The notes under the pieces were generated by a model. It was given only the letters and a program-made list of their open reading frames with translations. It was not told the origin of the DNA and did no database searches. 64,000 nucleotides of DNA from Bactericera cockerelli (Eukaryota > Arthropoda > Insecta > Hemiptera > Triozidae): NCBI GenBank assembly GCA_024516035.1, contig CM044964.1:17737084-17801083 (forward strand), read 5' to 3'. Positions within the stretch are counted from its first letter, which is position 1. Every line of letters starts with the position of its first letter. Position numbers and translations under genes: made by a program. Positions 4,201-63,377 of this stretch are shown in pieces.

Positions 4201-5190
4201 TATCTTCATACCTACCTATAGGTACGTGCACAGGTACACAGCTTCCACTCTTATAAAATCCAAAAATAAAAATAGATACAATTATTAGAAGTTTGGTATC
4301 CTTATTAAATATAAAAGCATAGGTACAGGGTAATAATAGAAATGCCAATTGAGTCATTTCAGGAATCGATTTGCTAAAAAAATAACACTGGAATTTGATT
4401 AACCTGTAAAAAAAATGATATAGGAGCAAAGAAATATTTTTTTTTACAAAAACGAACACAATACTTTGTATTATTAAAAAATTATCGGAAGTACAACTCA
4501 ATACGATCGCTATTTCATTCACGTTGTCAATTAGTAGGAGTATTGTGTCAAACTTTTCTGACAGGTTACCGCGTAAATGATTCTGTTTGGCACAATAGTT
4601 TGGCATCAACATTATTTCATCACATCACAAGAAAGTACTTTCGATGTAGGAAACCATCAGAATTTTCTATGATAAATACATTCTTGTTAGAACATCTCAC
4701 GTTGTAATAATTATAATAATTGTGTGGGACTCGATTTTTCGTGGTATCCTCGTCATTTTTCGTGGTATCTGTTCTCTATTCTTCAATCGACCTTCTTGAA
4801 TGAGACTGTAATTGGATATGTCAGTCCAGTAGACTGGAAAATGCGCAAGAAGATATTATTGGGGAATATCAATAAAACATTTAGGTAAAAAATACACCCT
4901 GACTTGACTTGAGAAAGACGCATGTTTATTTAAATGTACTTAATACAAGACTTTCACAATACATAAATAGGTATACAAGGAAACAAAGTTTTCACCTTCA
5001 TATAAATGGATTATCCTGTTTATCGTCAATCCATCTATCGACTGCTGTATGAAACAATTCAGAAGTACCCTAAACTTTATTTAAGAGACGCCAAATTTCA
5101 TTACATTATTCAATTATTGATTTATTTGTCAGTTGACCACCTACTTGAACCCCTTGAACACTGCATTCGTGAGCGCAGCGATCACATGAT

Positions 5191-5410
5191 TGGTAACTTT
5201 TCACAATTGGTAACTTTACACAATTCGTAACTTTTCACAATTGGTAATTTTTCACAATTGGCAACTTTACACAATTGGTATTTTTACACAATTGGCAACT
5301 TTACACAATTGGTAACATTTCACAATAGGTAACTTTAAACAATTGGTAACTTTACACAATTGGTAACTTTTCACAATAATTGGTAACTCTACACAATTGG
5401 TAACTTTTCT
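5191..5410 (+). repeat. Minisatellite, 17-bp unit (TTGGTAACTTTACACAA)
   Basis: About a dozen imperfect copies of CACAATTGGTAACTTT(T/A) run head to tail and end about 40 bp before the 3' splice site of the Osiris exon. The tract is intronic. Its pyrimidine-poor sequence leaves only CTCTTTCCCATGTCCACAG as the polypyrimidine tract. Confidence 0.85.
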
Positions 5411-44100: not shown

Positions 44101-47100
44101 CTGCACCAGAATTCCGGCACAAGGCATGGCCCTATATTTATTTTTCTTAATCCTACTCTTCACAATGAGGCATTGTCGTACATGTTTTTGGGCCTGATAT
44201 TGGCGCCATCGACCTACATAAATGACGGTAAAATACAATTTGTCACAGACTCTTTTACTTCTGAATAGCAATTTATTGCGATTTAATGTAGCTAGATTTG
44301 TATCTAGCGTGATTTCGGGGAGCGGCACCTGTATTTAGACCTATCCGCAAGACTCATTTACCTATAAAGATCCTAAATCTCAAAATAAGTTTTTAACCAG
44401 AAAATATCTGTCTTCTTGTCAACAGTTTAAACTTTAAACTGATAGGATATGACCATGCAAGATGTAGGGTAAACCCGTCGTGATGACCATGCAGTTGAAA
44501 GCGACGTTACCCCAAAAAAACAACAACAACATAAAATGATAGGAATTTCAAACGAGTTGAAAAGTATTTTTGTCTACATATTTTTTAACGGATCAAAGAT
44601 TCGGCGTATCAAGGTTACCACAACAACCAAAAAGCATAAATATGAAACTTTCGTTGTGCTTTCAAAGCTTCTACTTTCTTCTGCAACTTTCATAAGGTGT
44701 TAGATTAGTATACAAAATAATAGCGAACCTCCACATTGATCCACAAACAATAGATCCGGTCTCACGACCTGGTGGCTATAATAGAAATCGGAGCTACCTA
44801 AAACCACAGAAAAATATACCTACTTTGAACCACCAATGAATGATTGATTCAATTATAAGATCCAAGTACAATAATACAACTTTACAGACTGTATAATAAT
44901 TATATTAATTATTCATAATGTACACCATCAGCAGGCACGGACGGTGGTAAAATGCTTTGGGGGTGCTGCCACATAAACCGGACTAAAATGGGATTTATAA
45001 AGAAGCTCTTTCAGAGTCTAAAGAATTTGAGTGTTTTTTATCATACTAATCATATGCATAATAACTATGCATTAATTATTCTAGAAATGTGTGATAGTTT
45101 TTCATTGTGTACGAGCTAGAACTTGAGAAAAAACTCCTTTTTCGACTGGGGGTTCTGCAGTTCCGCAGCTCCTTAGCACCGGTCGGTCGCGCCTGGCCAT
45201 CAGTATACCTATACCTACGTATGTAAGGCACCTCACAGAAGTGAAGTTCTCAGACCATCAGTATACCTTTACCTACATAATGTAAGGCACCTCACAGAAG
45301 TGAAGTTCTCAGACCATCAGTATACCTTTACCTACATAATGTAAGGCACCTCACAGAAGTGAAGCTCTCACATTTTTTTTCAATTGAATCAAGTACCTAA
45401 GTACTCAATGAAATAATTAACTGAGAGAGATAAAAAACTACTCAATGAAACAATGAAAGAGGGAAAATACACGAACACACTTCCGATATCTACAGATAAA
45501 CCTACTAACAAATTTGAGTACACTGGTAGTCAAGTGGTTAACGCGCTAGTCTTATATTCCAGGTAGCGTATCGATCCGTTGGTTCGAATCCCAACCAGTG
45601 CATGAATTTTTCCTCATTAATTTGAGTTTGTGACCACATAAGAATAAGACTCTGAGTGTTAGGTGGTAGAAAATGCTTTGAGAATTAACCTCGCCTGGTG
45701 ATTACCTTCCACAAAAGAGTATAATTATTATTTTTTACTTAGTTATATCTTTAGTTTTATTTTTAACTAGCCGTTTGCCCGTGCTTTGCAACGGGACTAA
45801 ATTTCAAATTTACTAAGGCATGGCCGTACTGCTGGACAGCAATGCCTTTTTGAACTTTTTATAATTTTTCTGGACAAAGCAATAATGGTTTTGGGGGGGT
45901 CAATTCTGAGACATTTTTCGCTATCTCTTACCGTTTTGGCTAAACAACTCCGGACAAACAAACATAGGTAGGTAGGTAGGTAGGTAGGTAGTCCTTTTTT
46001 CTGTTTTATATATAGAGATTTTAAGACACTTTTGTAAATGGCCCAAAAAATTGGTCAATCTCATACCTAATAAATAATTGTATGGACTTTCCAGTCTTTC
46101 CACTGAAACCCTATAACCAGGTCAAGTGATTTCTATGGTGTGGTGCTAGGTATATTCCTGCTATCACAATGCTTAGGCATATTACTATCGATTAAAGTTG
46201 CTATCCTAGGAAGTTAAATACAAACATTAAATTACACGAAGAACAATCGCAGGAACTTCTAATAGCTTTACATCTAGGAGATTAATTGGTTTGGGTGGGA
46301 AGTTTACCTGTGAACTTGGCCATCAACACTTGGCAGAAAGTTGATATACCTATGATCTACATAGAAATAGAATATATATATATGTGTAGCTAAGAGTGAA
46401 AGCTCTGATTATGGGTGATTCCGACTCCAGGTAACAAGATAAATAAAATTACCATTTTAAATATGGATTTTTTAAAATGGTAATTTTATACACCAGGGCC
46501 GGGGCTTTTACAAGCCAACGACTGTCATTGGCAGTCTCGTGTGGAAATGTCTCGAGCCTGGTAGGCACCATGTGTCGGAAGAAGAATGATGACATGTTTG
46601 TCATGTAATTATGTTTTATTAAATTGAATGTATATGTATAGGGTATTGGAATTTTAATATGTATGGATCTTTTTAGGTTCACACCCAACATACCTTTCAA
46701 GTAGGTATTCAATGGCTGAAATTCAAGCTTCTAAGCCATAACCACTGCAAAAAAAATCAAGTAGATTTCTGCATAGAAAAAACATAGAGATAATAAAATC
46801 CTTATGAACGGTCCTTAGTATGTTTACTAATCTTCTAATTATACATACCTACATGAATATAACTATATCATACAAACCATACATATATGTACAATGTACA
46901 TAGGTACCTAGAATGTTTTACATTCTATAAATACAAATCTCCTTTACAAGTGAAAAGAGCTAGTTGGAGATCTTTTTGTCAGGACGTGGAAAACACCTCT
47001 GAGACATCAAGACTCCAAAAAATCATGTCAAAAGACCCCATAAATCCGGTAGGGACGTTAAAAAAACCTGACGGAAAATACACGGTAACAGGGAAAGAAA

Positions 47101-50100
47101 CAATGGAATTACTTCTACAAACACATTTCCCTGAATCAGTTGTGATTAATTCAGCCGAGAACCATTTGCCTTCCGAACTCCCTCATAGGAGACCCTCAAT
47201 GGCAGACTGGAAAACCGCAAGAATAATAATCACATATAAGAAAATTGAGTGGGCAATCAACTCATTCAAACCTTTTAAAGCCTGTGGACCTGATGGAGTG
47301 TTTCCAGCTCTCCTACAGGAAGGCAGGGAAACAATCATACCAGTCCTCTGTAAGCTTTTTCGAGCGAGTATAGCTGTTGGCTATATTCCATCCACCTGGA
47401 AAGCTGCAGAGGTGGTATGCATACCTAAACCGGGTCGAAAAACATATGCTGAGGCTAAGGCATTCAGGCCCATTACCCTGTCGTCCTTTATCCTCAAAAC
47501 CCTCGAAAAGCTTGTTGATAAATATGTCAGAGAATCTTTCCTTGTGGAAAAACCTCTACATTCAAATCAACATGCTTACCAAATGGGAAAGTCATGTGAA
47601 ACAACTTTACATCACTTGATGGTAAAGATCGAAAGTACAATAATTAACAAGGAAGCTTCTCTTGGAGCTTTTCTTGACATTGAGGGTGCATTTGACAATA
47701 CATCCTTCGAATCTATGATCCAAGCTGCCAAAAAGCGTGGATTTGATGACACCTGCTGTAGGTGGATAGAAACCATGCTGAGGGACAGGACCATAAGAAT
47801 CAATCTATTCGGAGAAACCGTAAACGCACTCATCAAGAGAGGATGTCCGCAGGGAGGAGTTTTATCACCCCTGTTGTGGAACCTTGTTGTTGACGAGTTA
47901 CTGGAAAAACTGAATAGTCAGGGATACTACACCCAAGGATATGCAGATGACATAGTTATCTTGATTCAGGGTAAGTATCTAGAGACAATCTCGGATGTTA
48001 TGCAATCCGCGATGAAAATAGTGGAAAAATGGTGTAGGGACGTTAACCTTAGGGTTAATCCAAACAAAACCACCCTCATTCCATTCACTCGCAAAAAGAA
48101 ATTGGAGGGGCTTCAACCTCCTTTTCTCTTTGGGAAACGCCTAGAGATGGTTCACGAGGTTAAATATCTGGGAATTATTCTGGATACTAAACTAACGTGG
48201 AACTCTCATCTCTCTAAAGTTACCAATAAATGTACTAGAGCGCTCATGATGTGCCGAAGAACATTTGGTAAAAGCTGGGGTCTGAAACCTAGCATGATGG
48301 CCTGGCTATACAATGCAGTAATCAGACCAATGATCACCTATGGTTGTCTAATCTGGTGGACAAAAACAGAACAAGTTCAAGCAAAGGCAGCTCTTAGTAA
48401 GCTCCAACGTCTAGCATGTCTCTGTATTACAAGTGCAATGAAAAGCACACCAACTGCAGCAATGGAAACCCTCCTAAACCTGCCCCCTCTAGATATTATT
48501 ATCAAAGGGGAAGCCAGGATGGGGGCGTACAGACTGCAACAAAACGGGGGCGCATTACGATTCGGCCCAAAAAGGTTTATGAGAAAGGTTTTCGATTTCA
48601 GGTAAAAAAAGTCACCGAACGATTCGTCCCAAAACGTTATCTTGACCAAAAAATAAACAACACGATTCGGCCCAATGCAACATTCTAAGTACCGTACATA
48701 TTGAGGGATTTTTTATTATTCAACATTAAATTACGAAATTACCTTCTATGAATATCAGGCTTTGGCCTTCTATGTATTATCCCTAACCCTACTATATTCT
48801 TGATGCATGGCCTTCTATGTATTTTACCTAACCCTACTATATTCTTGAGGCATGGCCTTCTATGTATTTTACCTACCTAACCCTACTATATTCTTGAGGC
48901 ATGGCCTTCTATGTATTTTACCTAACCCTTCTATATTCTTGAGGCATGGCCTTCTATGTATTTTACCTAACCCTACTATATTCTTGAGGCATGGCCTTCT
49001 ATGTATTTTACCTAACCCTACTATATTCTTGAGGCATGGCCTTCTATGTATTTTACCTAACCCTACTATATTCTTGAGGCATGTAATTCTATGTATTTTA
49101 CCTAACCCTACTGTCAAACACTCAAATAAACACTAATAACAGAGATGACTGTTACTGGTTCAAAACAATGTTTCCATACTATTTTATAGGGATTTTTTGG
49201 TGGAATGAAAGTGGGACTTTTTGTTGGAATAAAAGTAGGATTTTTTGTGTGGGATCAAAATTTGATAGTGTGTTTTGGGACGAATCGGGTTATGGCCGAA
49301 TCATGCTGTGTTTTTATGATTTTTTTTTGGGGCCGAATCATGCTATGGAAAAGGTCTACTCAGGTAATTTGGGCCGAATCGTGAAGTTCCCCAAAACGGA
49401 ATCTGGAAAGGTCGACTTCTGGGACATTCCAAAATCACAGCACTAATTGCGGAACCTGTTTTATACATGGCTAGCGATCAGATGACTGTTAAAACGTCTT
49501 TCGAAAAATCCTTCAAAACCGGCACCTTCAAACTGGTAGAAGATTGGGTAACGAAAGAAAGACAATTGCTGTCCAAAGGTTGTCTTGTGTGGTACACAGA
49601 TGGCTCCAAGACAGCAGAAGGCTCGGGATCTGGAATACATGGAGTCAATCCCAAGACAGATATAAGTATCTCATTGGGAAAATATGCCAGTGTCTATCAG
49701 ACCGAGATCAAAGCTATTTGCACCTGCGCTCAGATGAACTTGGAGAGTGGCTACCAAGGTAGAGATATCTACATTTTCACTGACAGCCAGGCTGCTATTA
49801 TGGCACTAGAAAGTCCACAGGTTAAATCAAAAATAACCTGGGAATGCCAACAAACCATACAAAAACTGGGACAACTTAACCGAGTTAACATAGAATGGGT
49901 CCCAGGACATAAAGGTATTGCTGGAAACGAGAGAGCTGACCAATTGGCAAGGAAAGGCTCCACAACCCCCTTCATTGGTCCCGAGCCAGTGATGGGGATA
50001 ACCAAATCTGAAGTAAGAGGAACAATACGAAGATGGATACAACAAAAACATCACAGGTATTGGACTGAGACTTCAGAACAACGACATAGCAAACTGATGA

Positions 50101-53100
50101 TGACCGGACCAACATCATCCTTAACTGCTGACTTCCTTCGGCTTAGCCGAAGACAAGCGAGGATAGTCACTGGCCTAATTACGGGACATTGCTGCCTAAG
50201 AAAACATCTGTACAATATGAAGATCTTTAGGGAACCTCCTATTTGCAGATTATGTAGAGAGGACGAAGAAACTGCTACACATGCAATCTTAGATTGCAAT
50301 GCCCTCTCAGAATGGAGAATAAGTATCATTGGGACCCTGAACCCAAGAGAAGCACTTATTCAACACAATCTAATCAAAAGACTTCTCAGACTTTCTGAGA
50401 AGCTTAAACTTGATTAGATAACGAAGCTAAATCTTCCACACACAAAGGGCCCAATGTGGCTGAGGTGTACGGGCAACCCAAACCTATAAGAAGACTTGGC
50501 TTTATGAAATGAAATGAAATGAAAATGCTATCCTAGGTAGATAAATACAAACATTAAATTACACGAAGAACAATCGCAGGAACTTCTAATAGCTTTACAT
50601 CTAGGAGATTAATTGGTTTGGGTGGGAAGTTTACTTGTGAACTTGGCCATCAACACTTGGCAGAAAGTTGATATACCTATGATGTACATAGAAATAGAAT
50701 ATATGTTGTGTACCTAAGAGTGAAAGCTCTGATTATGGGTGATTCCGACGCGGCTAACAAGATAAATAAAATTACCATTTTAAATATGGATTTTTTAAAA
50801 TGGAAATTTTATACACCAGGGCCGGGGCTTTTATACGCCAACGACTGTCATTGGCAGTCTCGTGTGGAAATGTCTCGAGCCTGGTAGGCACCATGTGTCG
50901 GAAGAAGAATGATGACATGTTTGTCATGTAATTATGTTTTATTAAATTGAATGTATATGTATAGGGTATTGGAATTTTAATATGTATGGATCTTTTTAGG
51001 TTCACACCCAACATACCTTTCAAGTAGGTATTCAATGGCTGAAATTCAAGCTTCTAAGCCATAACCACTGCAAAAAAAATCAAGTAGATTTCTGCATAGA
51101 AAAAACATAGAGATAATAAAATCCTTATGAACGGTCCTTAGTATGTTTACTAATCTTCTAATTATACATACCTACATGAATATAACTATATCATACAAAC
51201 CATACATATATGTACAATGTACATAGGTACCTAGAATGTTTTACATTCTACATATAAATACAAATCTCCTTTACAAGTAAATGTAGTGATGGTCTTCACA
51301 GAATGGCCAGCAGGTATAGAGAAACTCTTACGAGGTACGATGGTACAAAACCTGTATCCCATTCGATAACAGTTCCCATGAAAGTCGAATCAACTAATCA
51401 TTCTTCCGGCCAAATACATTTAATGCTTTTCAATTTGATTTGGAATTGTTTACGATTTACTTAAAGGATAACTAAATTGTTTACATTCTTATAGGGATTA
51501 AAACATAAAATGCATAAAAAAACATAAAATGCAAGAACGTAATTAGCTGCGTAATTAGAGTGTGTTCAATGGTATTAAATTGGTACCATCGATTGTAATT
51601 CTACGTTAATGAAGTAATTACTCCAGCCCAGAACTCTACTTATTCATTCTTTCTTCGGGTTAATAAGAGTTTATTTACACTCTAATAAAGTCTAATACCT
51701 CCAGTAGAACCTTCCAAACCTATGTCTTGCGGTTTCGGATACACGGCTTCCTCCCTTTTACCTATGTAAAACAGTTCATCTTAGGTAAATCTCTCTCTCT
51801 CTCTCTCTCTTCCACACCTTCTCTATCACTCCTCAGTTGAAAGTTATCAAATTTGTGTTAATCACTTTCGTGATAGCACAACTACTCAAATTCGCTTTAC
51901 TAAAATAACGCTGACACCGGGACTTGAACCGCCGACCTCCAGGTTACAAGTCCGTCGCATTATCGATCACTACTTAGATCGGTTGTTGGAAGGAAAAGTT
52001 CACTTGTGGTTATGAACCCATATACATATACCTAAACATTGTCAGTATAGTACCTACTCCAACAATAAAATTAGGTTAGATTGATGGCCTTTTTAAGAAG
52101 GTAACAACAACTAGGAGAGGTTAATTACTGAAGATATACATATCTGAGACTCATTTCAGAAAGCACTTTCACTCTCAAAATATCTTTTTAACCTATGTAT
52201 TTCGTTCATATAACGCCCTACGATTGAAAGGAAGATTTGGGGATTTTGAGAGCCCGAATTATAAAACAGGATTAGATTAACTAATTCTACATTAATCCAA
52301 GTTTGCCTGCATTGTGCTGGACGCGTCTTGAAAATTTAGGTGGGGCCAGTGCAATGTTAATCAATACGGGTGGAGACGCACCTTAATACATTACACGGTT
52401 TAAAGGGATATTTGGGGATTTTGGAGTCAAGAGTGTTTTCTAGAATGAGGTCCATCATCGGTTGTCTACGACGTGGCTGAACAACTAATTTACTACATAT
52501 CTGTTGTTGTTGTTGTAGCCAGCTTGGCTACAGCTGGAGGGATGAGTGATGGTCTCCAGCCAACTTTATTTCAAAGTTGGCTCGTTCTGAACCACATATT
52601 TCTATGTGCAATCAACCATCATGAGGACTTTGACTTTTCTCTATAAGCCATTATTAAACCCTTAGGAAACTGCAAGCTAGCCTGGCTTGTAATGGTTGGC
52701 TAGTCTGTTCTCTGTTTATAGTCTGTCTACTTCGACCTCACCTAATCATCCTTTTCTTCTGCCCCCAGGCTGACAAAGAGAAGAAGGTAAAGAAGAAGAA
52801 GTCCACCAAGGAATCCGATGCCCCCGCGGCCGAGGAGGCGGCCCCCGCCCCCGCCCCCGAGCCAGAGTCCGCCCCCGTCTCCAAGCCCGCCTCCACGCGC
52901 GCCTCCAGTCGCTCCTCCAGCAAGAAGGCGAAGCGCTCTGGCTCCACCGTGTTCTCCATGTTCTCCACCGGACAGATCGCTGAGTTCAAGGAGGTGAGTT
53001 GCTTTTTTTTTTTTTTTTTTTTTTTAATAAATTTTTTTGAACGTGGCAGGATTCTCCCAAGGGAGCTCTTCCACCCAACAGCTCAGCGCGATGGTTGAGA

Positions 53101-56100
53101 AAGTGAAATTTCTGCTACTCGAAAAAAAAAAAAAAAGTTCCCGTAGAATCACTGAAGTTAGGCAACATCCAGTGAGGTGAAGAATTTGTGATGCTGGCAT
53201 TCCGGCCCCACCCATTTCCTGCGAATGGAGGGTAACACCCCCGTCGTGTAGTTCAAAGCGACGTTAATCCCAAATTTAAAAAAAAAAACAACACGTGGGT
53301 ACAACACTAAGGCCGAAATTAATGGACAAAATAAGATACCAAGTTCAGACTAACATTTAAAGCAATACCCAAAATCTAGACTTAAGTGCACGGAGGTATA
53401 GTAAAAACGTGTATTAATGCCTCGTAAAAACAATATTGAAATTGAAACAAAGGGTGTTTAGATTTTTTATCATGAAAAGTCAGGTGGTATCCCTTACAAA
53501 CAACTGTAATATAGCCTTATCGATCAAGCTACTGGAGTCGGTTAAGAAAATTTAATAACACAAAGTCCTATTCTGCGCTACCTACCCACTAATTTGTTGT
53601 GATATAATAACACAAAGAAATTTCGAAATAATTTGAAATGGAAAACAATTGGCTTTTTTGTTTTACCTAATTAAAAAAAAAAAAAAAAAAACAAAAAAGC
53701 CAAGTGTTTTCTATCTTCAAATTATTTCGATGTTCACTTGTTTTACCAAGAGTTGTGTATAATTATAAGATTTTTCTGAGAACTTATATACTTCTTTGTT
53801 ATACAAAGAAAGTATAAGTAGTGCCTTATTTAGACTGTCAGCGCAAGACAGGTAGTCCCATTATGCCAACAGTTTAACAAAGCACCTCTTTATTTATTTG
53901 AGTATTTCACACAAAGAAACACACTGATTGATGTATATTTCCCTCCGGCCAGGGTTTCGCCATGATGGACGCCTTGTGATATAACACATTAACACAAAGA
54001 AACACAATTATTTATGTATATTTCCCTCCGGCCAGGGTTTCGCCATGATGGACGCCTTGTGATATAACACATTAACACAAAGAAACACACTGATTTATGT
54101 ATATTTCCCTCCGGCCAGGGTTTCGCCATGATGGACGCCTTGTGATATAACACATTGATTTATGTATATTTCCCTCCGGCCAGGATTTCGCCATGATGGA
54201 CGCCTTGTGATATAACACATTAACACAATTTTTTATGTATATTTCCCTCCGGCCAGGGTTTCGCCATGATGGACGCCTTTTTTTATTTATTTATTTTTAT
54301 TTAGAAACTCTTTATTACCAGAACATATATACAGACAAACAATGGTAAAATTAAATATAAAAAATTGACAGTATTAATAATATAAACAAGATAAAAATAA
54401 ATAAAATATATACATATGTCCTAACTAAAGGGCGGGGTTATTGCCTATGGCAATCTCTTCCACCAAACCCTTTGTGATATAACGCAAAGAAACACACTGA
54501 TTTATTCATATTTCCCTCCGGCCAGGGTTTCGCCATGATGGACGCCTTGTGATATAACACACTGATTGATGTATATTTCCCTCCGGCCAGGGTTTCGCCA
54601 TGATGGACGCCTTGTGATATAACACACTGATTGATGTATATTTCCCTGCGGCCAGGGTTTCGCCATGATGGACGCCTTGTGATATAACACACTGATTGAT
54701 GTATATTTCCCTCCGGCCAGGGTTTCGCCATGATGGACGCCGACAAGGACGGCATTCTCGGGAAGGCGGATCTGATCAAGATCTACGACACTGTCGGCAA
54801 GCTAGTGTCGGAGAAGGAGGTGGATGACATGCTGGCGGAAGCCACTGGCCCGGTCAACTTCACCCAGCTGCTGTCGCTGTTCGCCAACCGCATGTCGGGA
54901 GGCGCCACTGATGACGATGAGGTGGTGGTCGCTGCCTTCAAGGCTTTCGACGAGGGGGGTGTCATCAACGGAGACAAGTGAGTAGACGCCAGATTTATTC
55001 TGTCTGTCCCATTAGCTCAGAAAATATAATACTTTCCTTATTATTTTTTATCCCATAAAATATATATGACCTGTTTGACTGCTGGAGTAAAGGGACTTTT
55101 CAGTCTTACCTCGGCAGTATAAACAAGGTATATTCTATTCTATTCTATTATAGGATAAGGAAAGTAAAAAAAGTCAATACTCCCGGTAGCTCTGTCCCGG
55201 TAGCTCAGTGGTAAAGGCGGCACTCTGTGAATCCAGAAATTCCAGAGTTCGTGGGTTCGAAACCCAGCCGGGACATGACAAGTTATCCCCTCATTTGGGA
55301 TTTTTACCACATAATAATATGTCTTGGTCTTACTGCTAGAGTAATGGGGACTTAATAATCTTAGTCGGGCAATATAAATAAGGCGATATTATTGTTATTA
55401 TTACTCTGTGCCGGGGTGTAAACGTCGCGTTGATCTGGTAATCGTGGGTTCGAAACTTAGCCAAGCCAGCATCTATGACACATTGAATATACCAGTTCTC
55501 GTTCTATCACTAAGTAATAATAACACCCTTTAGTGGAAGGTAACCACCAGGCGAGGTTAATGCTCAAAACATTTTCTACCACCTAACCCTTAGATTCTTA
55601 TTATTCTTATCTTTATTAGAGGAAAAACTCATGCACTGATTGGGATTTGAACCAACGGATTACAACACTACCTGGATTACTAGACTAGCGTGTTAACCAC
55701 TTGACTACCAATGCAGATTTATTATGTCCCGGTGGTCAAGGTGTCGGTAATCTAGTGGTCGTGGGTTCAAAACCCAGCCGAGCCAGCACCTATGACACAT
55801 TGAAATACCAGTTTTTGTACTGTCATTGAAGTTAACACGTTCATGGACACTTTGGACATGAATGCCATAGCATTCACAAAAATCTAAAGGGGCATACAAA
55901 AATCTAGAATGCTACAGCAGTCATGTCCATGAACGTGTTAAGGAACATCCAGCGATGTTAGGACATGGGTGAGTGACTCAAATTTGAACCCTCGTGATGC
56001 TGGCTATTTCCGACCCAACTCAAGCTGGGTGAGGTTAAGTTGAGTTTGTGAGTTTCCAGCGAATGAAGGGTAAAACCCCCGTCATAATATAAGAATGCTG

Positions 56101-57161
56101 TTGAAAGCGACATTAAAACCAAATAATAAAAAAAAGCTCAGCCGGAACTAGACAAGTTATAGTACGATTTGGATTTTTTTCATGGGGAATTGGTTCATGT
56201 TGTATGGAAAGTATTTGAATAGAAACCACAAAACACATTATAATATAACGCCTAGGTGAAGCATGCATAGACAATGCGCATTGCATCACGATGAACAGAA
56301 GGAAGAGTATTCCTGCTAGGTATACCGGAAAATGGCGGGTTAACATGACAGGTATAGGTTTATATCTTTTACATATTATAAAATAATTCGTTTGTGTGTG
56401 ACTTGTAGAATGATATAGGGCTCAAGGTTGTAGGGTTTCAGTAGAAATACCTTACTTCTCGACCTAATGAGATCTCTAGTGATCTTCCTCATGGTACAAT
56501 CCCACCTAGGGCGTGATTTTTTCCTCATTAATTTGAGTTTTTGACCACATAATAATAAGACTTAGAGTGTTAGGTGGTAGAAAATGCGTTGATCATTAAC
56601 CTCGCCAGGTGATTACCTTCCACTAAAGTATTATTATAAGTTTAGTAATACCTCTTTTTTTCTTCAAGTCTTGGTATTGTATTAAAATAAATGAGGAACA
56701 TTCAGAACCCTATCGAACTCTCTGGTTTCCCCTTGTTTGAGCCTACCAAAGGAGACAGCACATTTTCTAGTCAATCTGGAAACCCCTGATTTTTTGTCCG
56801 TCCTCAAAGCGTCACACTCCTGACTCCTCGGTTTGGTGGTTTCAATAGTGAAAGGAGAGCTATTATTATTATTATTAGAACCAGATCGATCTTGTTATTC
56901 CTCATTATATTATTTCCACACAACTTGCTATTCCACTAAAGTGTTTTATAATTATTATTACAAGGGGATCTTGGCAGCGAGCTAAACCTATGTTTTGTCT
57001 GGTGTTGCAGGATGCGCCACGCCCTGATGAACTGGGGAGAGAAGTTCACCAAGAAGGAGGTGGACGAGGCTTTCGACGCCATGGAGATTGACCGCAAGGG
57101 CATGATCGACACAGAGGCCCTCATCCAGATGATGATCGGTGGAGGTGACGACGACGCCTAA
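17115..57161 (+). CDS. Mlc2: Myosin regulatory light chain 2 (muscle), four coding exons
   Basis: Coding exons are 17115-17117, 52769-52993, 54721-54977 and 57011-57161, giving 211 residues. The protein has a Lys-rich and Pro/Ala/Glu-rich N-terminal extension (residues 2-50), as in insect flight-muscle regulatory light chains. A basic patch and phospho-site region follows (KKAKRSGSTVFSMFS; Ser60/Thr61 align with Drosophila Ser66/67, the MLCK targets). The first EF-hand is intact (DADKDGILGKAD, residues 82-93), with Asp at position 12 of the loop as usual for this family. The conserved VNFTQLLSLFANRM and the C-terminal lobe come next, and it ends GGGDDDA. The light chain binds the IQ region of the myosin neck and tunes stretch-activated contraction. 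Its most unusual features are the 35.7-kb first intron right after the ATG and the repeated decoy acceptors before exon 3. Confidence 0.93.
18410..18476 (+). repeat. 3' part of SINE family B
   Basis: AGGATGAGGGTTAATTGGTA...TGCTTTGAGAATTAACC...CTAAAGAGTCTTAT is the family-B body without its tRNA-like head. A MITE has inserted in its tail. Confidence 0.65.
18480..18609. mobile_element. Harbinger-like MITE, 130 bp, TTA target duplication
   Basis: It starts TGGCCGGGTCGAGACTTGAC and ends with the near-complement GTCGAGTCTTGACCCAGCCA. Both sides carry TTA. A three-base TWA duplication is the mark of PIF/Harbinger elements. No coding sequence. Confidence 0.6.
19948..20090 (+). repeat. SINE family A, near complete
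   Basis: GACCTCAGTAGCTTCATCAA...TAACCTGGAGGTCGATGG, GGTTCAAGTCTC (B-box-like), then AGATTTTGTAAAGCGAGTTT and ATCACGAAAGTGATTCACAC. A good reference copy for the family. Confidence 0.8.
20410..20475 (+). repeat. tRNA-like SINE head of uncertain family
   Basis: TTTAGTCGGTTCACTGTCGA...GGCCGCAGGTTGCGGGTTCAAATACC shows A- and B-box-like elements. The downstream body does not match families A to F. A family-B scrap (AATAATAAGACTCTGAGGGT) lies at 20590-20618. Confidence 0.45.
21487..21785 (-). repeat. SINE family F, antisense, near complete
   Basis: On the complement, a tRNA-like head (CATAACGGTATAGTGACTAC... GAGTTCGATCCCCGGTCGGA) leads into a body with CCCAGGCTGGGTGAGGTTAA and a 3' end with GGTTGAACAATGCCGACCAC. 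A second copy without a good head is at 30095-30360. Confidence 0.75.
22000..22085 (-). repeat. SINE family A fragment, antisense
   Basis: GTTACTCAAACTCGCCTTAC...GGGGCTCGAACCACTGATCT matches the complement of the family-A body and B-box. The head beyond the B-box is cut off. Confidence 0.65.
22683..22825 (+). repeat. LINE 3'-end piece followed by SINE family B 3' end
   Basis: GTGGAAGAGATTGCCGCAGG...AATAACCCCACCCTTTAGTTA is the same 3'-end repeat as the insertion (antisense) at 54284-54472. It is followed by TCCTCGCCTGGTGGTTACC of family B. The parent of the 3'-end repeat is not otherwise present in the window. Confidence 0.5.
23836..24095 (+). repeat. SINE family D, near complete
   Basis: The tRNA-like head is well preserved: ATAGCCAAGTGGTTAAGCAC, then GGTCCCGGGTTCGAACCC. 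The body runs through TTGACCGAGCACCTAACTGG, CCCATCAGAGAGGAGGCATA and CAGGCTACAACACAGACC to TAGCTCCTGTTTATGGCTAC. Although close to a tRNA, it has an extended 3' body and no proper acceptor stem, so it is a SINE and not a tRNA gene. Confidence 0.75.
24238..24350 (+). repeat. SINE family A, sense
   Basis: ACCGATCTCAGTAGCTCGAT...AAAGCGGCGAACTCGTAAC, GGTTCGAGTTCC, then AAAGTTTAGCGATGCTAGTT. It is closest to the variant at 671-800. Confidence 0.75.
24500..24612 (-). repeat. SINE family A, antisense
   Basis: Complement of the family: ACTACTCAAACTTGCTTTGC, GAACCACCGACCTCCAGG, then CATCGATCAAGCTACTGAGG. It lies 150 bp from the sense copy, so the two could pair as an inverted repeat. Confidence 0.75.
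26105..26250 (+). repeat. SINE family A, sense
   Basis: GACCTCAGTAGCTTGATCAG...GGCGGTGGACTTGCAATCTG, GGTTCAAGTGCCGG, then GGATTTAGTAAAGCGAGTTT. Head and most of the body are intact. Confidence 0.8.
26535..26810 (+). repeat. Minisatellite with unit about 35-40 bp
   Basis: Seven or so imperfect units of GTTGTTCAACTAATTCTCGT followed by TATTGTTCAACCTCA. Units vary by short internal deletions. Confidence 0.9.
27230..28288. mobile_element. 1,059-bp foldback element, mariner/DUF4817-related, TA-flanked
   Basis: It begins CAGGGTGATTCAGAAAAGTA and ends with the exact complement, with TA on each side. The two arms are about 425 bp each (27230-27655 and 27865-28288) and differ at only a handful of positions, so the element is young or its arms are homogenised. 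The central 200 bp still holds the last codons of a transposase (see 27769-27843). It sits in one unit of the 157-bp array. Confidence 0.88.
27769..27843 (+). pseudogene. C-terminal remnant of a mariner-like (DUF4817-type) transposase
   Basis: Twenty-four codons and a TAA read VRQSFRRRMEVCIEARGAHV followed by EHLL. This matches the C-terminal signature of IS630/Tc1/mariner-type transposases of the DUF4817 group, which end in a similar ...CIEA-GGH-EHLL tail. It lies between the two inverted arms of the foldback element. The rest of the transposase is deleted. Confidence 0.65.
28650..28955 (-). repeat. SINE family B, antisense, with an internal insertion
   Basis: The complement of the family-B consensus runs from 28950 (TAGTCGAGTAGTTAACGCGC) to the tail near 28650. 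About 95 bp (28728-28820, ending GTATTCAATTCAATTCAA) interrupts it, bounded by a repeated CCCTCAGA(A/G). The insert resembles a tiny LINE 3' end with an A/T-rich tail. Confidence 0.7.
29150..29208 (-). repeat. SINE family A head fragment, antisense
   Basis: TTTGGGACTCGAACCCACAA...GTACAAGCTACTGAGGTCC. Only the tRNA-like part remains. Confidence 0.55.
30095..30360 (-). repeat. SINE family F body, antisense
   Basis: CGGTCGGCATTGTTCAACTG at one end and CATTAACCTCACCCAGCCTG at the other match the family-F body at 21487-21785. A 38-bp segment (GGTTCGGCATTGTTCACCTC...) is a partial internal duplication. Confidence 0.65.
30397..30603 (+). repeat. SINE family C, near complete
   Basis: The tRNA-like head has TATATAGCTCAGTGGTAAAG (A-box) and GAGTTCGTGGGTTCGAAACC (B-box). 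The body runs CCGGGACATGACAAGTTATT...GATTTCACATAAAAATATGT...CTTGGGCTCACTACTGGAAT...GGGCAGTATAAACAGGCGAT and ends (ATT)n. Confidence 0.85.
31841..33829 (+). CDS. LINE ORF1: gag-like RNA-binding protein
   Basis: The first real ATG (31841, context GTAGCCATGTC) gives 662 residues; an upstream in-frame TTG extension is unlikely to be used. The N-terminal half is charged and coiled-coil-like. The C-terminal third carries three zinc knuckles near residues 549-610: CYNCLGVGHHSDIC and CLKCAQEGHMSRNC are CX2CX4HX4C, and CTSCERSGHHTESTAC is a CX2CX4HX6C variant. This arrangement is usual for ORF1 proteins of the R1 and Jockey groups, which coat the element RNA. The C-terminal tail is rich in Glu, Lys and Gly. 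It ends in TAA two codons before ORF2, in the same frame. Confidence 0.9.
   Translation: MSGTQNGGGENLNPPGDKNVNSDVTMIDQDSNSGTGQGGDQHPEPSSKSTESAVVTGSVASAGLLYDFPSNVFSDSEGEYQANTYYAKGGENPRKRKRDIDGSPEIEVIEGNKDILNMVVNVRNAILALSKTAAQERNTKKVIKERIILLQELNKNSLEKVCRYLGLVGKASKKLEFEDEKGKKPIEKKVLICSRCNVEMDRQEEEIKEVKAELQLASEMEQGKYSEFIKKKWNEKVFEKTTVVQGNPLTTKEGDIILFCKDRKEESALLNLARTRYPEIEDILEGGDEGEDQIQYIESVVTSKRGVRKRRVHVGEIGEVWDLREMLNNFKKEKLSKECKNMVVAVSNKECRDIVRKNIEVIFKEDHLSIELFTPEEKDKKRVRDFSTDRRERTTEAVVIKTNISTYAETLRNIRAVVDPAEIGVDIKAVKKTKDNNIVVVTNSGKAEALHREIAAKITGVETHVTGNNKTLLIFDVDATIRGSEVEEIIKRETREDGTQVRFIRTTQSGSQVATVVMPARAADALLAKGEIKIGWTRCRVKIKIDIVRCYNCLGVGHHSDICPEPRREKRCLKCAQEGHMSRNCENVSYCTSCERSGHHTESTACPVIRKLVQNSQQEFTAGRTDKGMLDTGNSENIAEEREKEKEEEKNGNRGGKGSGSD
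33836..36814 (+). CDS. LINE ORF2: APE endonuclease and reverse transcriptase
   Basis: The 992-residue protein starts MINILQCNLNRSPAAHDLLE, the typical start of R1-clade endonucleases. Endonuclease landmarks are VVIGGDVNAKSYAWNS, SILDVTICS and LSDHQYIFYE (residues about 1-205). The reverse transcriptase shows KKAPGPDGLSSEVIK, FGFRAGRSTIDAM, VDIRNAFNCVPW, CGVPQGSVLGGLLWN and the catalytic AYADD (about residue 636). A CX2CX8HX4C knuckle (CRYCDVNRDDAAHTFFVC) lies near residue 916. No RNase H follows. All catalytic motifs look intact. It inserts by target-primed reverse transcription in the nucleus. Clade placement is from motif style, not a tree. Confidence 0.92.
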   Translation: MINILQCNLNRSPAAHDLLEKTVMDRAVSIVLLSEPNKKCVDSNEWFRDKASDTAIKVTSGKLSVRESGNGKGFTWVLVNNDILIFSVYISPNVPLLSFLDFLEGLKNEVCRLSHRQVVIGGDVNAKSYAWNSAVEDDRGAVMSEWVVEMGMEVVNVGNTPTFVRGRSKSILDVTICSRGMMRKVKNWRVSDDENLSDHQYIFYEIGNIDEQVNNNIREKEEKAKWKFEESKKERFQELIRMKINDSIDDAEFCILKLQESCQEIFQRGKGKGKGKKRIYWWNEKIAEKRKVCHVQKRKMVRANKRRDLSEREKKEVRDLYFKCKNELRQEINYSKHCKWMELCSDLNRDVWGKAYKLVCKKFKLFPTIQLKSEEKMKIAIELFPQDDRLIWERVEVKESDIPLFTLEEAGEAFLGLKNKKAPGPDGLSSEVIKTFFETIPEACLNVCNKLLVQGIFPKCWKTAQLVLIEKGKKETGEMAYRPICLLDVFGKTMESLLKMRLTEEIKKSGDLSDNQFGFRAGRSTIDAMSKVLSIGEEAKRKSELCAIVMVDIRNAFNCVPWGGILEEIKKRRVPGYIVNMLCSYFESRELKIEEGRAIELSCGVPQGSVLGGLLWNVYYDPLLNLEIPSNSKLVAYADDVVVVTRGKTRIEIESEINEVMKIICKWLMEHKLQIAPHKTEVVLLVGKRICREISVRIENIEVKSTKSARYLGVYFEQGLKMSEHVKRAVEKAGRTANNLARIMPNINGPDNDKRELLASVVYSVLLYGAPVWAAVTRWQKYVTELEKVQRKVMLRLCRSYRTASTPALQIISRSLPIELMVQERAEMYAIQKIREENERREKEEELREKLRETWMEKWANEGSRGQWTKRIIRDVRAWIERKHGTVTYHLSQFLTGHGNFEYYLKRMRKVRTEKCRYCDVNRDDAAHTFFVCERFKGQREECYTKLGRVLSVENIIEEMLMSKENWECIEKMVREIIVIKERDGRALQRNQ
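37290..37480 (+). repeat. Minisatellite, unit about 45 bp, 4-5 copies
   Basis: Copies of ACCCTGTCCCGTTAGACAGG followed by CAAAGTAGCTGAACTTTTCA. One unit carries an extra GACA, and the first and last are truncated. Confidence 0.88.
39330..39575. mobile_element. Decayed pogo-like MITE remnant
   Basis: Several copies of TTCTCTTATA(T/G)...GG and a terminal CTCATATCCAGGTTTGACTC recall the ends of the 158-bp element at 7920. The left end is not clear. Confidence 0.4.
40519..40705 (+). repeat. 5S rRNA-derived SINE (family E)
   Basis: GCCAACGTCAATGCCACGTT, GAATACACCAGTTCTGTCAC and TGAAGTTAAGCAACGTCCAG follow the order of a 5S rRNA 5' half, including the internal promoter A-box (AAGTTAAGCA). A non-5S body with AACTCAGGCTGGGTGAGGTT and GAGTTTCCAGCGAATGAG follows. 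Other copies are at 53135-53285 and 55410-56135. Divergence from 5S and the added 3' body exclude a functional 5S gene. Confidence 0.7.
41705..41800 (+). repeat. SINE family C head
   Basis: TCCTGGTAGCTCAGTAGTAA...AATCCAGAGGTCGCGGGTTC, GAAACCCTGCCGAGAAATGG. The body diverges after about 41800. Confidence 0.7.
42315..42420 (+). repeat. Dispersed repeat, family G
   Basis: GTGGTAGAAGTGCTGAGTCA...TCTGGCTACCATCGTTCACG is the complement of the segment at 15030-15110. Confidence 0.55.
43142..43352 (+). repeat. SINE family B, near complete
   Basis: Head from AAGTGGTTAACGCGCTTG to GGTTCGAACCCC, then the full body and an (ATT)n tail. The following DNA (43353-43620) recurs after the family-B copy at 56512, see findings. 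Confidence 0.8.
45195..45372 (+). repeat. Minisatellite, about 58-bp unit, three copies
   Basis: CCATCAGTATACCTTTACCT, ACATAATGTAAGGCACCTCA and CAGAAGTGAAGTTCTCAGA repeat almost without change. The high similarity suggests recent expansion. Confidence 0.88.
45521..45730 (+). repeat. SINE family B, near complete
   Basis: Starts CACTGGTAGTCAAGTGGTTA, B-box GGTTCGAATCCC, then the body to CCTCGCCTGGTGATTACC and an AT-rich tail. It is close to the inferred family consensus. Confidence 0.85.
45766..46019 (+). repeat. Uninterrupted copy of the TAGG-microsatellite repeat (empty site)
   Basis: Reads ACTAGCCGTTTGCCCGTGCT through CTAAACAACTCCGGACAAAC, six GGTA units (45968-45991), then GTCCTTTTTTCTGTTTTATA and TATATAGAGA. 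It is almost identical to the two halves flanking the LINE at 31741-36986. It represents the same family without the insertion. Confidence 0.92.
46199..46950 (+). repeat. Left copy of a 752-bp direct repeat flanking a LINE
   Basis: Starts TGCTATCCTAGG and ends ATCTCCTTTACAAG. The right copy (50526-51277) has the same length and about 98 percent identity by eye, with differences such as CTGTGAAC/TTGTGAAC and GACTCCAGG/GACGCGGC. No tRNA-like promoter, coding sequence or LTR signals are visible in it. Confidence 0.92.
46951..48547 (+). pseudogene. LINE reverse-transcriptase domain (5' part of broken ORF2)
   Basis: Open frame with the RT blocks FKACGPDGVFPALLQEG, FRPITLSSFILKTLEKLVDK, HAYQMGKSCETTLHHLM, GAFLDIEGAFDNTSFESM, RGCPQGGVLSPLLWNLVVD and the catalytic GYADDIVILIQG. 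It runs on to a thumb region (KYLGIILDTKLTWNSHL) and ends at the transposon in ...YRLQQNG. The frame starts at the truncated 5' edge, so there is no native start codon. The only damage in the RT region is the insertion at its end. Confidence 0.9.
48548..49391. mobile_element. 844-bp DNA transposon, GGG...CCC ends, 8-bp target duplication
   Basis: The target site CAAAACGG is present on both sides (48540-48547 and 49392-49399). The left end GGGCGCATTACGATTCGGCC and the complement of the right end GGGAACTTCACGATTCGGCC match at 20 of the first 24 positions. More GATTCG(G/T)CCC motifs lie inside both ends. An 8-bp duplication with GG ends would suit Merlin-like or MULE-like elements. There is no transposase; the centre is a minisatellite (48765-49110). 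Confidence 0.85.
48765..49110 (+). repeat. 45-bp minisatellite inside the DNA transposon
   Basis: About seven units of GCATGGCCTTCTATGTATTT followed by TACCTAACCCTACTATATTC and TTGAG. Because 45 is a multiple of three, both strands show repetitive open frames, which are not genes. One unit has an extra ACCT. Confidence 0.92.
49400..50417 (+). pseudogene. LINE RNase H and zinc-knuckle domain (3' part of broken ORF2)
   Basis: It continues the reading frame of 46951-48547 with no shift (IWKGRLLGHSKITALIAEPV). The RNase H core shows WYTDGSKTAEGSGSG (first Asp), YQTEIKAI (Glu), FTDSQAAIMAL (second Asp) and WVPGHKGIAGNERADQLA (His and last Asp), so all four catalytic acids and the His are present. 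A CX2CX8HX4C knuckle (CRLCREDEETATHAILDC) lies near the C-terminus. The stop is at 50415-50417. Confidence 0.9.
50526..51277 (+). repeat. Right copy of the 752-bp direct repeat
   Basis: See the left copy at 46199. It starts immediately after the (ATGAA)n tail of the LINE and ends ATCTCCTTTACAAG, after which the sequence (TAAATGTAGTGATGG) differs from the LINE start that follows the left copy. Confidence 0.92.
51278..52768 (+). other. Last part of Mlc2 intron 1
   Basis: AT-rich; contains a (CT)n run at 51790-51811 and a family-A SINE, then unique DNA leading to the acceptor at 52768. No exon seen. Confidence 0.5.
51848..51985 (-). repeat. SINE family A, antisense, near complete
   Basis: ATCAAATTTGTGTTAATCAC, TTCGTGATAGCACAACTACT, then GGGACTTGAACCGCCGACCT and the head end TAGATCGGTT. 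Confidence 0.8.
52769..52993 (+). CDS. Mlc2: Mlc2 exon 2: N-terminal extension and phosphorylation region
   Basis: Seventy-five codons in phase 0 between CTTCTGCCCCCAG and GTGAGT. GC-rich and Pro/Ala/Ser/Lys-rich (residues 2-76), ending IAEFKE at the start of the first helix. Its composition contrasts sharply with the AT-rich introns on both sides. Confidence 0.93.
53135..53285 (+). repeat. 5S-like SINE family E, 5'-truncated
   Basis: TCACTGAAGTTAGGCAACAT...CCAGTGAGGTGAAGAATTTG, then TTTCCTGCGAATGGAGGGTA, CCCCCGTCGTGTAGTTCAAA and an A-rich tail. Confidence 0.6.
53624..53729. repeat. Strong hairpin (41-bp arms) in Mlc2 intron 2
   Basis: CGAAATAATTTGAAATGGAA...GGCTTTTTTGTTTT pairs with AAAACAAAAAAGCC...TCAAATTATTTCG across a short loop with an A-run. 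There are few mismatches. It looks like a miniature foldback element. It lies between exon 2 and the decoy array and could hold the intron RNA in a stem. Confidence 0.75.
53925..54742 (+). repeat. Tandem copies of the Mlc2 intron 2 / exon 3 junction
   Basis: The unit is GATTTATGTATATTTCCCTC, CGGCCAG, then the exon start GGTTTCGCCATGATGGACGC and C, then TTGTGATATAACAC. Decoy exon starts are at 53953, 54036, 54119, 54184, 54257, 54526, 54591 and 54656; the true one is 54721. Spacing is 65 bp in the copies nearest the exon and 65-83 bp in the distal ones. One copy has GATTTC in place of GGTTTC, and another has CTGCGG in place of CTCCGG. In the decoys GCC is followed by TTG TGA, an in-frame stop. 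Confidence 0.95.
54284..54472 (-). mobile_element. Short LINE-type 3'-end insertion within the decoy array
   Basis: About 190 bp with a T-rich left end (reading as an A-rich tail on the complement) and the segment GGCGGGGTTATTGCCTATGG...TCTCTTCCACC. The complement matches the repeat at 22683-22735. It interrupts the fifth decoy just after GGACGCC. Short target duplications (CCTT) are possible. Confidence 0.65.
54721..54977 (+). CDS. Mlc2: Mlc2 exon 3: first EF-hand and central domain
   Basis: 257 nt, phase 0 at the start and two bases left at the end (donor GTGAGT at 54978). It encodes GFAMMDADKDGILGKADLIK, the KEVDDMLAEA segment and VNFTQLLSLFANRM, then DEDEVV-like DDDEVVVAAFKAFDEGG. It is the only copy of the junction whose frame stays open. 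Confidence 0.94.
55178..55402 (+). repeat. SINE family C, near complete, partly duplicated head
   Basis: TCCCGGTAGCTC occurs twice in tandem, then TCAGTGGTAAAGGCGGCACT, GAGTTCGTGGGTTCGAAACC and the body with CTTGGTCTTACTGCTAGAGT and GGGCAATATAAATAAGGCGA. A 3' end of a related copy with (TTCTA)n tail is at 55075-55150. Confidence 0.8.
55410..55513 (+). repeat. tRNA/5S composite SINE (family E), first copy, interrupted
   Basis: A tRNA-like piece (ATCTGGTAATCGTGGGTTCG, AAACTTAGCC) runs directly into a 5S-like piece (AAGCCAGCATCTATGACACA, TTGAATATACCAGTTCTCG). It stops at 55513, where an antisense family-B SINE is inserted. Confidence 0.6.
55514..55716 (-). repeat. SINE family B, antisense, inserted in family E
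   Basis: Complement of family B from AATAATAACACCCTTTAGTG to TGACTACCAATGCAG. Nearly complete. Confidence 0.8.
55722..56135 (+). repeat. tRNA/5S composite SINE (family E), second copy with nested MITE
   Basis: Head TCCCGGTGGTCAAGGTGTCG...GTGGGTTCAAAACCCAGCC, 5S-like part (GAGCCAGCACCTATGACACA, TTGAAATACCAG, GTCATTGAAGTTAA), a nested element at 55836-55937, then GGAACATCCAGCGATG and the 3' body (CTCAAGCTGGGTGAGGTTAA, GAGTTTCCAGCGAATGAAGG, CCCCCGTCATAA, A-rich tail). Confidence 0.75.
55836..55937. mobile_element. 102-bp MITE with TTAA target duplication (piggyBac-like)
   Basis: TTAA lies on both sides (55832-55835 and 55938-55941). The ends are CACGTTCATGGACA and its exact complement TGTCCATGAACGTG. 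The host SINE sequence continues cleanly on either side (GAAGTTAA / TTAAGGAACATCC). TTAA duplication is the mark of piggyBac-type transposons. The middle contains a palindromic CTAAAGGGGCATACAAAAAT-type segment without coding sequence. Confidence 0.85.
56512..56642 (+). repeat. SINE family B 3' body
   Basis: TTAATTTGAGTTTTTGACCA, ATAATAAGACTTAGAGTGTT, CATTAACCTCGCCAGGTGAT then the tail. It is followed by about 270 bp (to 56930) that also follows the family-B copy at 43142-43352. Confidence 0.75.
57011..57161 (+). CDS. Mlc2: Mlc2 exon 4: C-terminal lobe and stop
   Basis: Acceptor GTCTGGTGTTGCAG. It completes the Lys codon (AA + G) and encodes MRHALMNWGEKFTKKEVDEA and the last EF-like region to GGGDDDA, TAA at 57159-57161. 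The 3' UTR contains a tandem duplication of about 50 bp (AAACCAACCAA...CCAATGA(C/G)GAACATCTCAAC). Confidence 0.94.
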
Positions 57162-57370
57162 ACCAACCAACCTCAACACATCCCACCAGCCAATGACGAA
57201 CATCTCAACGGCTAAACCAACCAAACTAAACACATCCCAGCCAATGAGGAACATCTCAACAAGCAAGACTTAACATGAAAAGTCCGGATAACAATGGACT
57301 ACCAAACAAACAAAATATTTGTGTCGGAAATTGTATCTTGCAAAAAAAAAATACTAAAAGCTTTCCATTG

Positions 57371-62043: not shown

Positions 62044-63377
62044 CTGGTGGGGAAAACGATGAGAATCAGGCCCGAATTATGAAACAGGATTAACTTTAAG
62101 ATATAATAATAACACTCTTTAGTGGAAGGTAACCACCAGGCGAGGTTAATGCTCAAAGCATTTTTTACCACCTAACCCTCAGAGTCTTATTATTATATGG
62201 TCACAAACTCAAATTAACGAGGAAAAATTTGTGCACTGGGTGGGATTCGAACCAACGGATCCCTACGCTACCTGGATTACCAGACTAGCGCGTTAACCAC
62301 TTGACTACCAGTGCATGCATAAGATAAGTCAGACCCTCCCTTAAGTTCGTGTTTCAACCAACCACAGCACACTATAGCCTGACTTGAGAGGGACAGTCAA
62401 GCTTAATTCATGTTCTATAATTTGGACCGTAGGGGAAAACCACGCCTAACCGGGAGACCATGATAAAGCAGCTCTACAAAAAGTTAATATTCTTCTATTT
62501 AGAGGTTACAGTGGAATATCCACATGTGTATAGACTGCGCGGGGTTGGTCCCAGGGACTGTGTGGTACCCGGGAATATAATAGGACCACGGGTTTTTCCC
62601 CCTGTCGTACGAGACACCTAACAGGAAGGCAAAACCCTTCACCAGTCGGTCTCGTCTCTAGCTAGCTAGCTGGTCTCGTTTAAAAGTCTACTGAGGTTTA
62701 CAACAGATAAAAACGCCTAAAGTCCCTACGATGAAATACCATTTGTCTGAACCTCAATACAAGAGAAACTGGATTTAGTAGACACCTCGATATCAGAGGG
62801 GGAAAAATTGGTCTGTTGAATTCTCTTATATCCAGGTTCGACGTTATACGGATGGTGATTTTATAAACATACATACTTTTACTTTCCATGTCCATGTGTA
62901 ATTCCGTGTCAATGTGTGTCACGTGTCCATGGTAGTGGAGGGGTAGTGAACCCCTTGAACGCCCAGAAGCAATCTTCAAGGCTCCTTCCGTGTCCTTTGT
63001 GTGTATCAAGGGTTGACTAGTTAATGCTAAGGGCGCTAATACTATTGCATGTACTTAACATGCACTTACCTCACAATGGCTATCATTCAGGCCGGCATGG
63101 TAGAACACGGATGCGTAGTGGGACAGAATGCTAAGGGCGCTAAGACTGCAGCATGTACTTAACAAGCACTTACCTCACAATGGCTGTCATTCAGGCCGGC
63201 ATGGTAGAACACGGACGCGTAGTGAGACAGATCAGGCACCAGAGGAGCAGAGTAAAGGAGAAGGGATGCCAGACTGGAGTACAGGGCCAGTCGAGAGGCC
63301 ACGCAGGTAGAGTAGGGAGGTACAGGGGCCCCTGTGGTCAGGGGCAGTAGCAGACCACAGATCTGGGTTTGGATGTT
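60631..63377 (-). CDS. PELP1-like acidic nuclear protein, 3' part (last two exons)
   Basis: Coding exons are 63174-63377 and 60631-62043, joined in phase 0 (538 codons plus stop); the 5' exons lie beyond the window. The upstream exon is Leu-rich and helical (LLLPLTTGAPVPPYSTCVAS, RLALYSSLASLLLYSAPLVP). The junction reads FYHAGLNDSHCE / IREVCQRGIEVLEKVHHPK. It resembles the part of PELP1/Rix1 proteins that precedes their acidic tail (DS-EV...C...L-HPR-P-L). The rest is very acidic with Lys-rich blocks (SIWDLEDSDDIVSVDTDED, DFEDDDSDEDEGESDSEDSD) and contains GGDSDDSLVQWES, ending DDDVAEEIDDCLKLFNAE. PELP1 works with TEX10/WDR18 in 60S ribosome maturation. Identity is likely but not certain; another acidic nucleolar protein is the alternative. 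Confidence 0.6.
62106..62317 (-). repeat. SINE family B, antisense, complete
   Basis: Complement of the family from the (ATT)n tail to TTGACTACCAGTGCATG, including GGGATTCGAACCAACGGATC. It sits in the last intron of the PELP1-like gene, in the same sense as that gene's transcript. Confidence 0.85.
62745..62855. mobile_element. Decayed pogo-like MITE
   Basis: TGTCTGAACCTCAATACAAG at one side and TTCTCTTATATCCAGGTTCG at the other recall the ends of the element at 7920-8077. Ends and TA duplications are worn. Confidence 0.45.
63021..63128 (-). repeat. Tandem copy of a 5' splice site and exon end (PELP1-like gene)
   Basis: On the minus strand, the last 55 nt of the 63174-63377 exon (CACTACGC(A/G)TCCGTGTTCT...CAGCCATTGTGAG) plus GTAAGTGC and about 45 nt of intron occur a second time downstream. 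The copy has GATAGCC for GACAGCC and GCATCC for GCGTCC. Both donors are perfect GTAAGT. Confidence 0.9.
63174..63377 (-). CDS. PELP1-like penultimate exon seen in the window
   Basis: Exactly 68 codons, phase 0 at both ends, between CATATTAATTTCAG and GTAAGT on the minus strand. It is GC-rich and Leu/Ser/Pro-rich. Use of the first donor keeps the frame; use of the downstream copy would run into a TAA five codons into the intron. Confidence 0.8.

Follow-up and report, generated by a model that had tools for sequence, protein, structure and literature searches.

In the genome assembly of the psyllid Bactericera cockerelli, the boundary between intron 2 and exon 3 of the Mlc2 gene is preceded by eight tandem extra copies of itself, all of which lie ahead of the real acceptor at 54721 (positions are those of the window, that is, the whole 64,000-nucleotide stretch of DNA that was analysed). 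We will call these eight copies decoys. We consider it likely that a young minisatellite formed by chance over this boundary, that the ninth acceptor wins, and that the decoys are a mostly ignored by-product. If the copy number is real, nature has here set up the classic competing-splice-site experiment with many copies at once, in a muscle gene that is presumably highly expressed, and it provides a natural test of how cells choose the right site among near-identical acceptors. A comparable array was not found in the titles and abstracts of the literature on duplicated or decoy splice sites, intronic minisatellites, psyllid repeats and Mlc2, in which subscription papers are thinly covered, and the words "tandem" and "minisatellite" are absent from the main text of a paper on three psyllid assemblies (PMC12203342).

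The Mlc2 gene and the array ahead of its exon 3

Exons 2 to 4 (Table 1), once joined, give a translation of 210 residues followed by a stop; exon 1 was looked for and only weak candidates were obtained. Judged from its predicted sequence, the gene product is a muscle myosin regulatory light chain (Mlc2). Its best PDB match is 3jbh_E (E 5.7e-43), a full-length match that spans query residues 1-208 of 209 and includes the N-terminal extension, and three EF-hand Pfam models exceed their own cut-offs. The closest named proteins are those of Cacopsylla melanoneura (90% identity), Diaphorina citri (89%) and Cyamophila willieti (88%), with a second, partial Diaphorina citri model at 93% over 62% of the query, and the top three relatives lie at 90-97%, P0001 and P0002 reaching 97% and 94%. 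These two sequences, which come from relatives and not from B. cockerelli, resemble spliced transcripts with the canonical junction, since the whole protein fits on contigs of 1300 and 1253 bases. The PDB, Pfam and the relatives all agree with the earlier note on this DNA, which had called the gene a Mlc2 muscle gene.

Table 1. Coordinates in the window of the Mlc2 exons, the decoys, the insert and the likely source of the filler
Feature	Positions	Exon start	Strand	Remarks
Mlc2 exon 2	52769-52993		+	75 codons, ADKEK...AEFKE; donor GAG/GTGAGT; insect proteins align
Likely filler source	53597-53620		+	TTGTGATATAA...TAACACAAAGAAA; local alignment score 39
Decoy 1	53938-53973	53953	+	acceptor plus 21 nt of exon 3
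Decoy 2	54021-54056	54036	+	
Decoy 3	54104-54139	54119	+	
Decoy 4	54169-54204	54184	+	G>A at exon +2, gives DFAMMDAL
Decoy 5	54242-54277	54257	+	interrupted directly past the exon copy
Insert after unit 5	~54278-54470 (approximate ends)		-	A-rich tail on the minus strand; blastn within the window
Decoy 6	54511-54546	54526	+	
Decoy 7	54576-54611	54591	+	same sequence as the real site, -72 to +21
Decoy 8	54641-54676	54656	+	C>G in the pyrimidine tract
Mlc2 exon 3	54721-54977	54721	+	real acceptor; donor CAA/GTGAGT, GT at 54978; protein alignment
Mlc2 exon 4	57011-57161		+	includes the stop codon

Several smaller features accompany the gene. A 54-bp tandem duplication (2 copies, 57154-57260, found by TRF) covers the last Mlc2 codons, the stop codon and the start of the 3' UTR, while an inverted repeat at 53638-53714 in intron 2, with 27-nt arms that are 93% complementary, could be a small hairpin element. 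ARAGORN reports two tRNA-Thr-like genes on the minus strand (55631-55715 and 62231-62314), one of them inside intron 3, which could be tRNA-derived repeats. The D. citri models are irregular at the start of exon 3, as P0005 is devoid of GFAMMDADK and P0040 begins with MDADKDG; these broken models may reflect an array there too, a plain misprediction or a gap.

At all nine sites, on the plus strand, the acceptor TTTCCCT[C/G]CGGCCAG leads into the first letters of the exon. The eight repeated acceptors lie where the earlier note had placed them, and a scan of the reverse strand found no boundary copy. An exact match to the 36-mer TTTCCCTCCGGCCAGGGTTTCGCCATGATGGACGCC is present 7 times within the 64-kb window, where simple arithmetic would not lead one to expect an exact 36-mer even twice, and the remaining 2 copies of this 36-nt core (decoys 4 and 8) bear one change each. 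The exon portion common to the copies is 21 nt of exon 3, not the 22 nt claimed earlier. Apart from these two single changes, the AG, the tract and the 21 exon nt are intact at 9 of 9 acceptors, as for competing 3' splice sites. The acceptor-to-acceptor spacings are 83, 83, 65, 73, 269, 65, 65 and 65, and the 269 step holds an insert of ~190 bp, so that the interruption reported for the fifth unit stands and now gains a size and an A-rich minus-strand tail. Partial copies of this insert are found at 22684-22750 and 23388-23431 (blastn within the window), and it is probably the truncated 3' end of a retroelement.

With head-to-tail units that fall within the ~10-100 bp of minisatellites (TRF periods of 83, 65 and 65, with 96, 90 and 97% matches), the array resembles an intronic minisatellite or VNTR made of 65-83 bp units with variants. 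Unlike these, its unit holds an acceptor and 21 coding nt, and the array reaches a live exon. Units 7-9 are near-identical to each other (blastn within the window) and could have been miscounted, which raises the question of whether the assembler expanded one or few boundary copies; however, the spacings vary along the array and the units differ in sequence, one of them with an insert, while a faulty assembly would be expected to repeat the same unit without change, and we regard such an artefact as quite unlikely. A search for proteins in the antisense frame of the array returned no candidates. A 114-codon open frame runs on the minus strand through units 6-9 (54438-54782), for which a related protein was not found. 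The core, taken as 25 or 24 nt, has 0 matches in viral contigs and prokaryote genome contigs, as expected for an insect sequence.

Predicted consequences of splicing to a decoy

Translating each junction confirmed the phase of intron 2 and the GFAMMDAL or DFAMMDAL ending that had been deduced for the decoys. Use of any decoy would add 8 or 15 residues and then meet an in-frame stop, within 15 codons for 8 of 8. When one Met is counted for exon 1, the product would end at 84 residues for 7 of the 8 decoys, in keeping with the earlier figure of about 84, which does not extend to the fifth one, where the stop comes at 91. The conserved GFAMMDADKDG reading and the full protein are reached from the ninth acceptor only. 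Poison exons are known for unproductive splicing coupled to nonsense-mediated decay, and use of the decoys, with their early stop, is likewise expected to yield a substrate of this decay. They differ from poison exons in that they come without a separate cassette exon. We also considered and rejected a microexon using the GTGATA motif that follows the decoys, as this motif looks weak as a donor on visual inspection, and a stop is met whether 1, 2 or 3 such microexons of 23 nt are placed before exon 3.

The decoy product EFKEGFAMMDAL was read in 0 of 11 protein matches, from a database that may lack B. cockerelli transcripts. Of these matches, which were obtained with the predicted decoy product as query, four (P0122, P0124, P0125 and P0130) show the normal junction with exon 3, and the other seven (P0121, P0123, P0126, P0127, P0128, P0129 and P0131) continue beyond exon 2 with different sequence, as expected of unspliced DNA. 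The missing product is a weak argument against decoy products.

The earlier note had offered as an alternative that the array works as a tunable poison switch through nonsense-mediated decay. Regulated use of the decoys would then send a variable share of the Mlc2 pre-mRNA to this decay and set the dose of light chain. The stop found soon after each of the eight decoys is what such a switch calls for, as are the exon junction and the long untranslated stretch that, by the structure of the gene, would come after it. However, this stop is a single feature of the unit, inherited from one event and copied with it, and thus does not count as eightfold evidence; the decoy product is missing from the 11 matches, among which the species itself may not be represented, and the array has the features expected from ordinary repeat expansion. 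The sole hint in favor of the switch is that the units vary less in their acceptor/exon core than just ahead of it, a pattern recognized post hoc, and we find this alternative very unlikely.

Probable selection of the ninth acceptor

As decoy 7 and the real site share 93 contiguous nt, the identity of the acceptor must reside outside that stretch, and the choice must lie deeper in exon 3, in exon definition with the GTGAGT donor, or in position. The GC content of the +22 to +100 segment is 0.56 at the real site and 0.16-0.44 at the 8 decoys, real-exon bases being left out (0.60 for exon 3 overall and 0.36 for intron 2). The exon running to the shared donor measures 257 nt from the real site, and it would measure 322-1025 nt from the decoys. 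It had been claimed that exon definition or the interior of exon 3 must make the choice; the identity of decoy 7 and the GC content speak for this by inference, but position is also a possible cue.

The introns flanking exon 3 measure 1727 and 2033 nt, and both are long by the 250-nt limit given in a human study (PMC9225289), so that exon definition is likely. According to that study, the upstream acceptor is preferred where sites lie 20 nt or more from each other, which speaks against the ninth site, but exon definition significantly weakens this preference, and the authors conclude that the sites closest across the exon are then favored; it also cites Reed and Maniatis for the choice of the upstream one of competing 3' sites. 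Tandem acceptors are described without order preference in a human library study (PMC6783452). The two proximity rules set out in PMC10228655 would rank the nine near-equal sites of Mlc2 differently, the intron-proximity rule putting decoy 1 first and the exon-proximity rule decoys 8 and 7. The frequent preference for upstream acceptors in human data (PMC9225289) would also suit a damaged allele, in which the decoys take most of the splicing, this copy of the gene is weak or dying, and the protein comes from another copy; however, exons 2-4 are intact and conserved, and this scenario strikes us as extremely unlikely. The literature on splicing preferences is human or general, and insects may differ.

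Duplicated sites were reportedly used, and an effect of exon sequence is said to have been seen, in the competing 3' splice-site constructs of Reed and Maniatis from 1986. In Mlc2, as in these constructs, one donor would have to choose between similar acceptors in cis, but the Mlc2 case is natural, with eight extra copies, a long intron and probable exon definition. NAGNAG motifs, for their part, are tandem alternative acceptors of one exon. Several acceptors serve one exon in Mlc2 too, but they are spaced by 65-269 nt, have their own branch-point region each, and all the upstream choices give a stop.

Other means of silencing the decoys were tried and rejected. An RNA structure hiding them is not favored, since the 53900-54800 region has no better fold than its shuffled versions (z +1.59), 18 of 20 of which equal or surpass it; local RNA accessibility did not set the real site apart from the decoys either. 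The loss of branch points was set aside as the silencer, as decoys 1, 7 and 8 keep the 18 nt that surround CTGATTGATG in the real site. We give no weight to counts of purine-rich enhancer-like motifs, because they rely on a short list of our own and because one match of decoy 8 is in fact a motif of the real exon.

We infer that the ninth acceptor would be chosen because it alone precedes the real exon, whose coding sequence is GC-rich beyond +21 and which reaches a GTGAGT donor after 257 nt, while the decoys would define longer exons (322-1025 nt) that open with intron-like DNA. Decoys 7 and 8 may plausibly leak to some extent, and nonsense-mediated decay would remove the resulting transcripts. 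The real tract TATATTTCCCTCCGGCCAG is short and interrupted and may need help, and one could thus imagine that the array aids splicing, the repeated branch-point and tract units raising the local concentration of U2AF/U2 and boosting the terminal acceptor of a strongly expressed gene. The cores are retained among the units, in line with such a role; however, bound decoys would themselves be substrates, and we think it highly improbable that the array serves in this way.

Origin of the array and variability of its core

The array looks like a boundary-spanning minisatellite, given the resemblance of its filler to 53597-53620, its variable unit lengths and the retroelement-like insert in one unit. 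Indeed, the sequence between the exon copies, TTGTGATATAACACATTAACACAAAGAAA, matches this likely source with a 5-nt gap, and the alignment score of 39 was reached in none of 2000 simulations under a first-order Markov model and in 0 of 67 other tiles of the window. The extra boundary copies probably arose through ordinary repeat expansion. The segment that starts near 53597 and reaches codon 7 of exon 3 would first have been duplicated in tandem, its 21 exon nt being thereby joined to upstream intron DNA, and a deletion between two copies of the short direct repeat ACACAAAGAAA would have come next. Expansion via unequal exchange or slippage may then have been followed by another deletion, of 18 nt, yielding the 65-bp form, and by the arrival of the retroelement-like insert in unit 5. 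The near-identity of units 7-9 implies that the last expansion was recent or that these units were homogenised.

Tandem arrays are common enough in this region for such an event. Counting as arrays the TRF rows with a period of at least 15, merged by hand, we obtained 19 tandem arrays that make up 4.9% of the window, of which 2 belong to the Mlc2 boundary array. The other 17 cover 4.0% of the window, and it is thus not improbable that an array landed on one junction: under blind placement of these 17, the chance that at least one of seven junctions (five in Mlc2 and two defined by eye in an Osiris-like exon) falls inside an array is ~0.25.

The variability of the units is distributed unevenly, with 2 variable columns of 36 in the acceptor/exon core versus 6 of 18 in the preceding 18 nt (Fisher p 0.012; p 0.003 by permutation within base classes), although this split was chosen after the data were seen and repeat units are not independent. 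The lower variability of the core leans against a purely neutral array, which would not predict it. One could go further and propose a rheostat, in which the number of poison acceptors sets the share of Mlc2 pre-mRNA that decays, array-length variants tune the dose from one individual or stage to another, and the cores have been preserved by selection; we give this idea very little credence.

The array that lies just ahead of an Osiris-like (DUF1676) exon, a 17-bp unit repeated 12.7 times at 5189-5407, was considered as a second case and rejected, since it stops short of the acceptor. The window also contains two non-LTR retrotransposon-like sequences, one at 31811-36814 with reverse transcriptase and endonuclease domains and the other at 46863-50417 with reverse transcriptase and RNase H domains.
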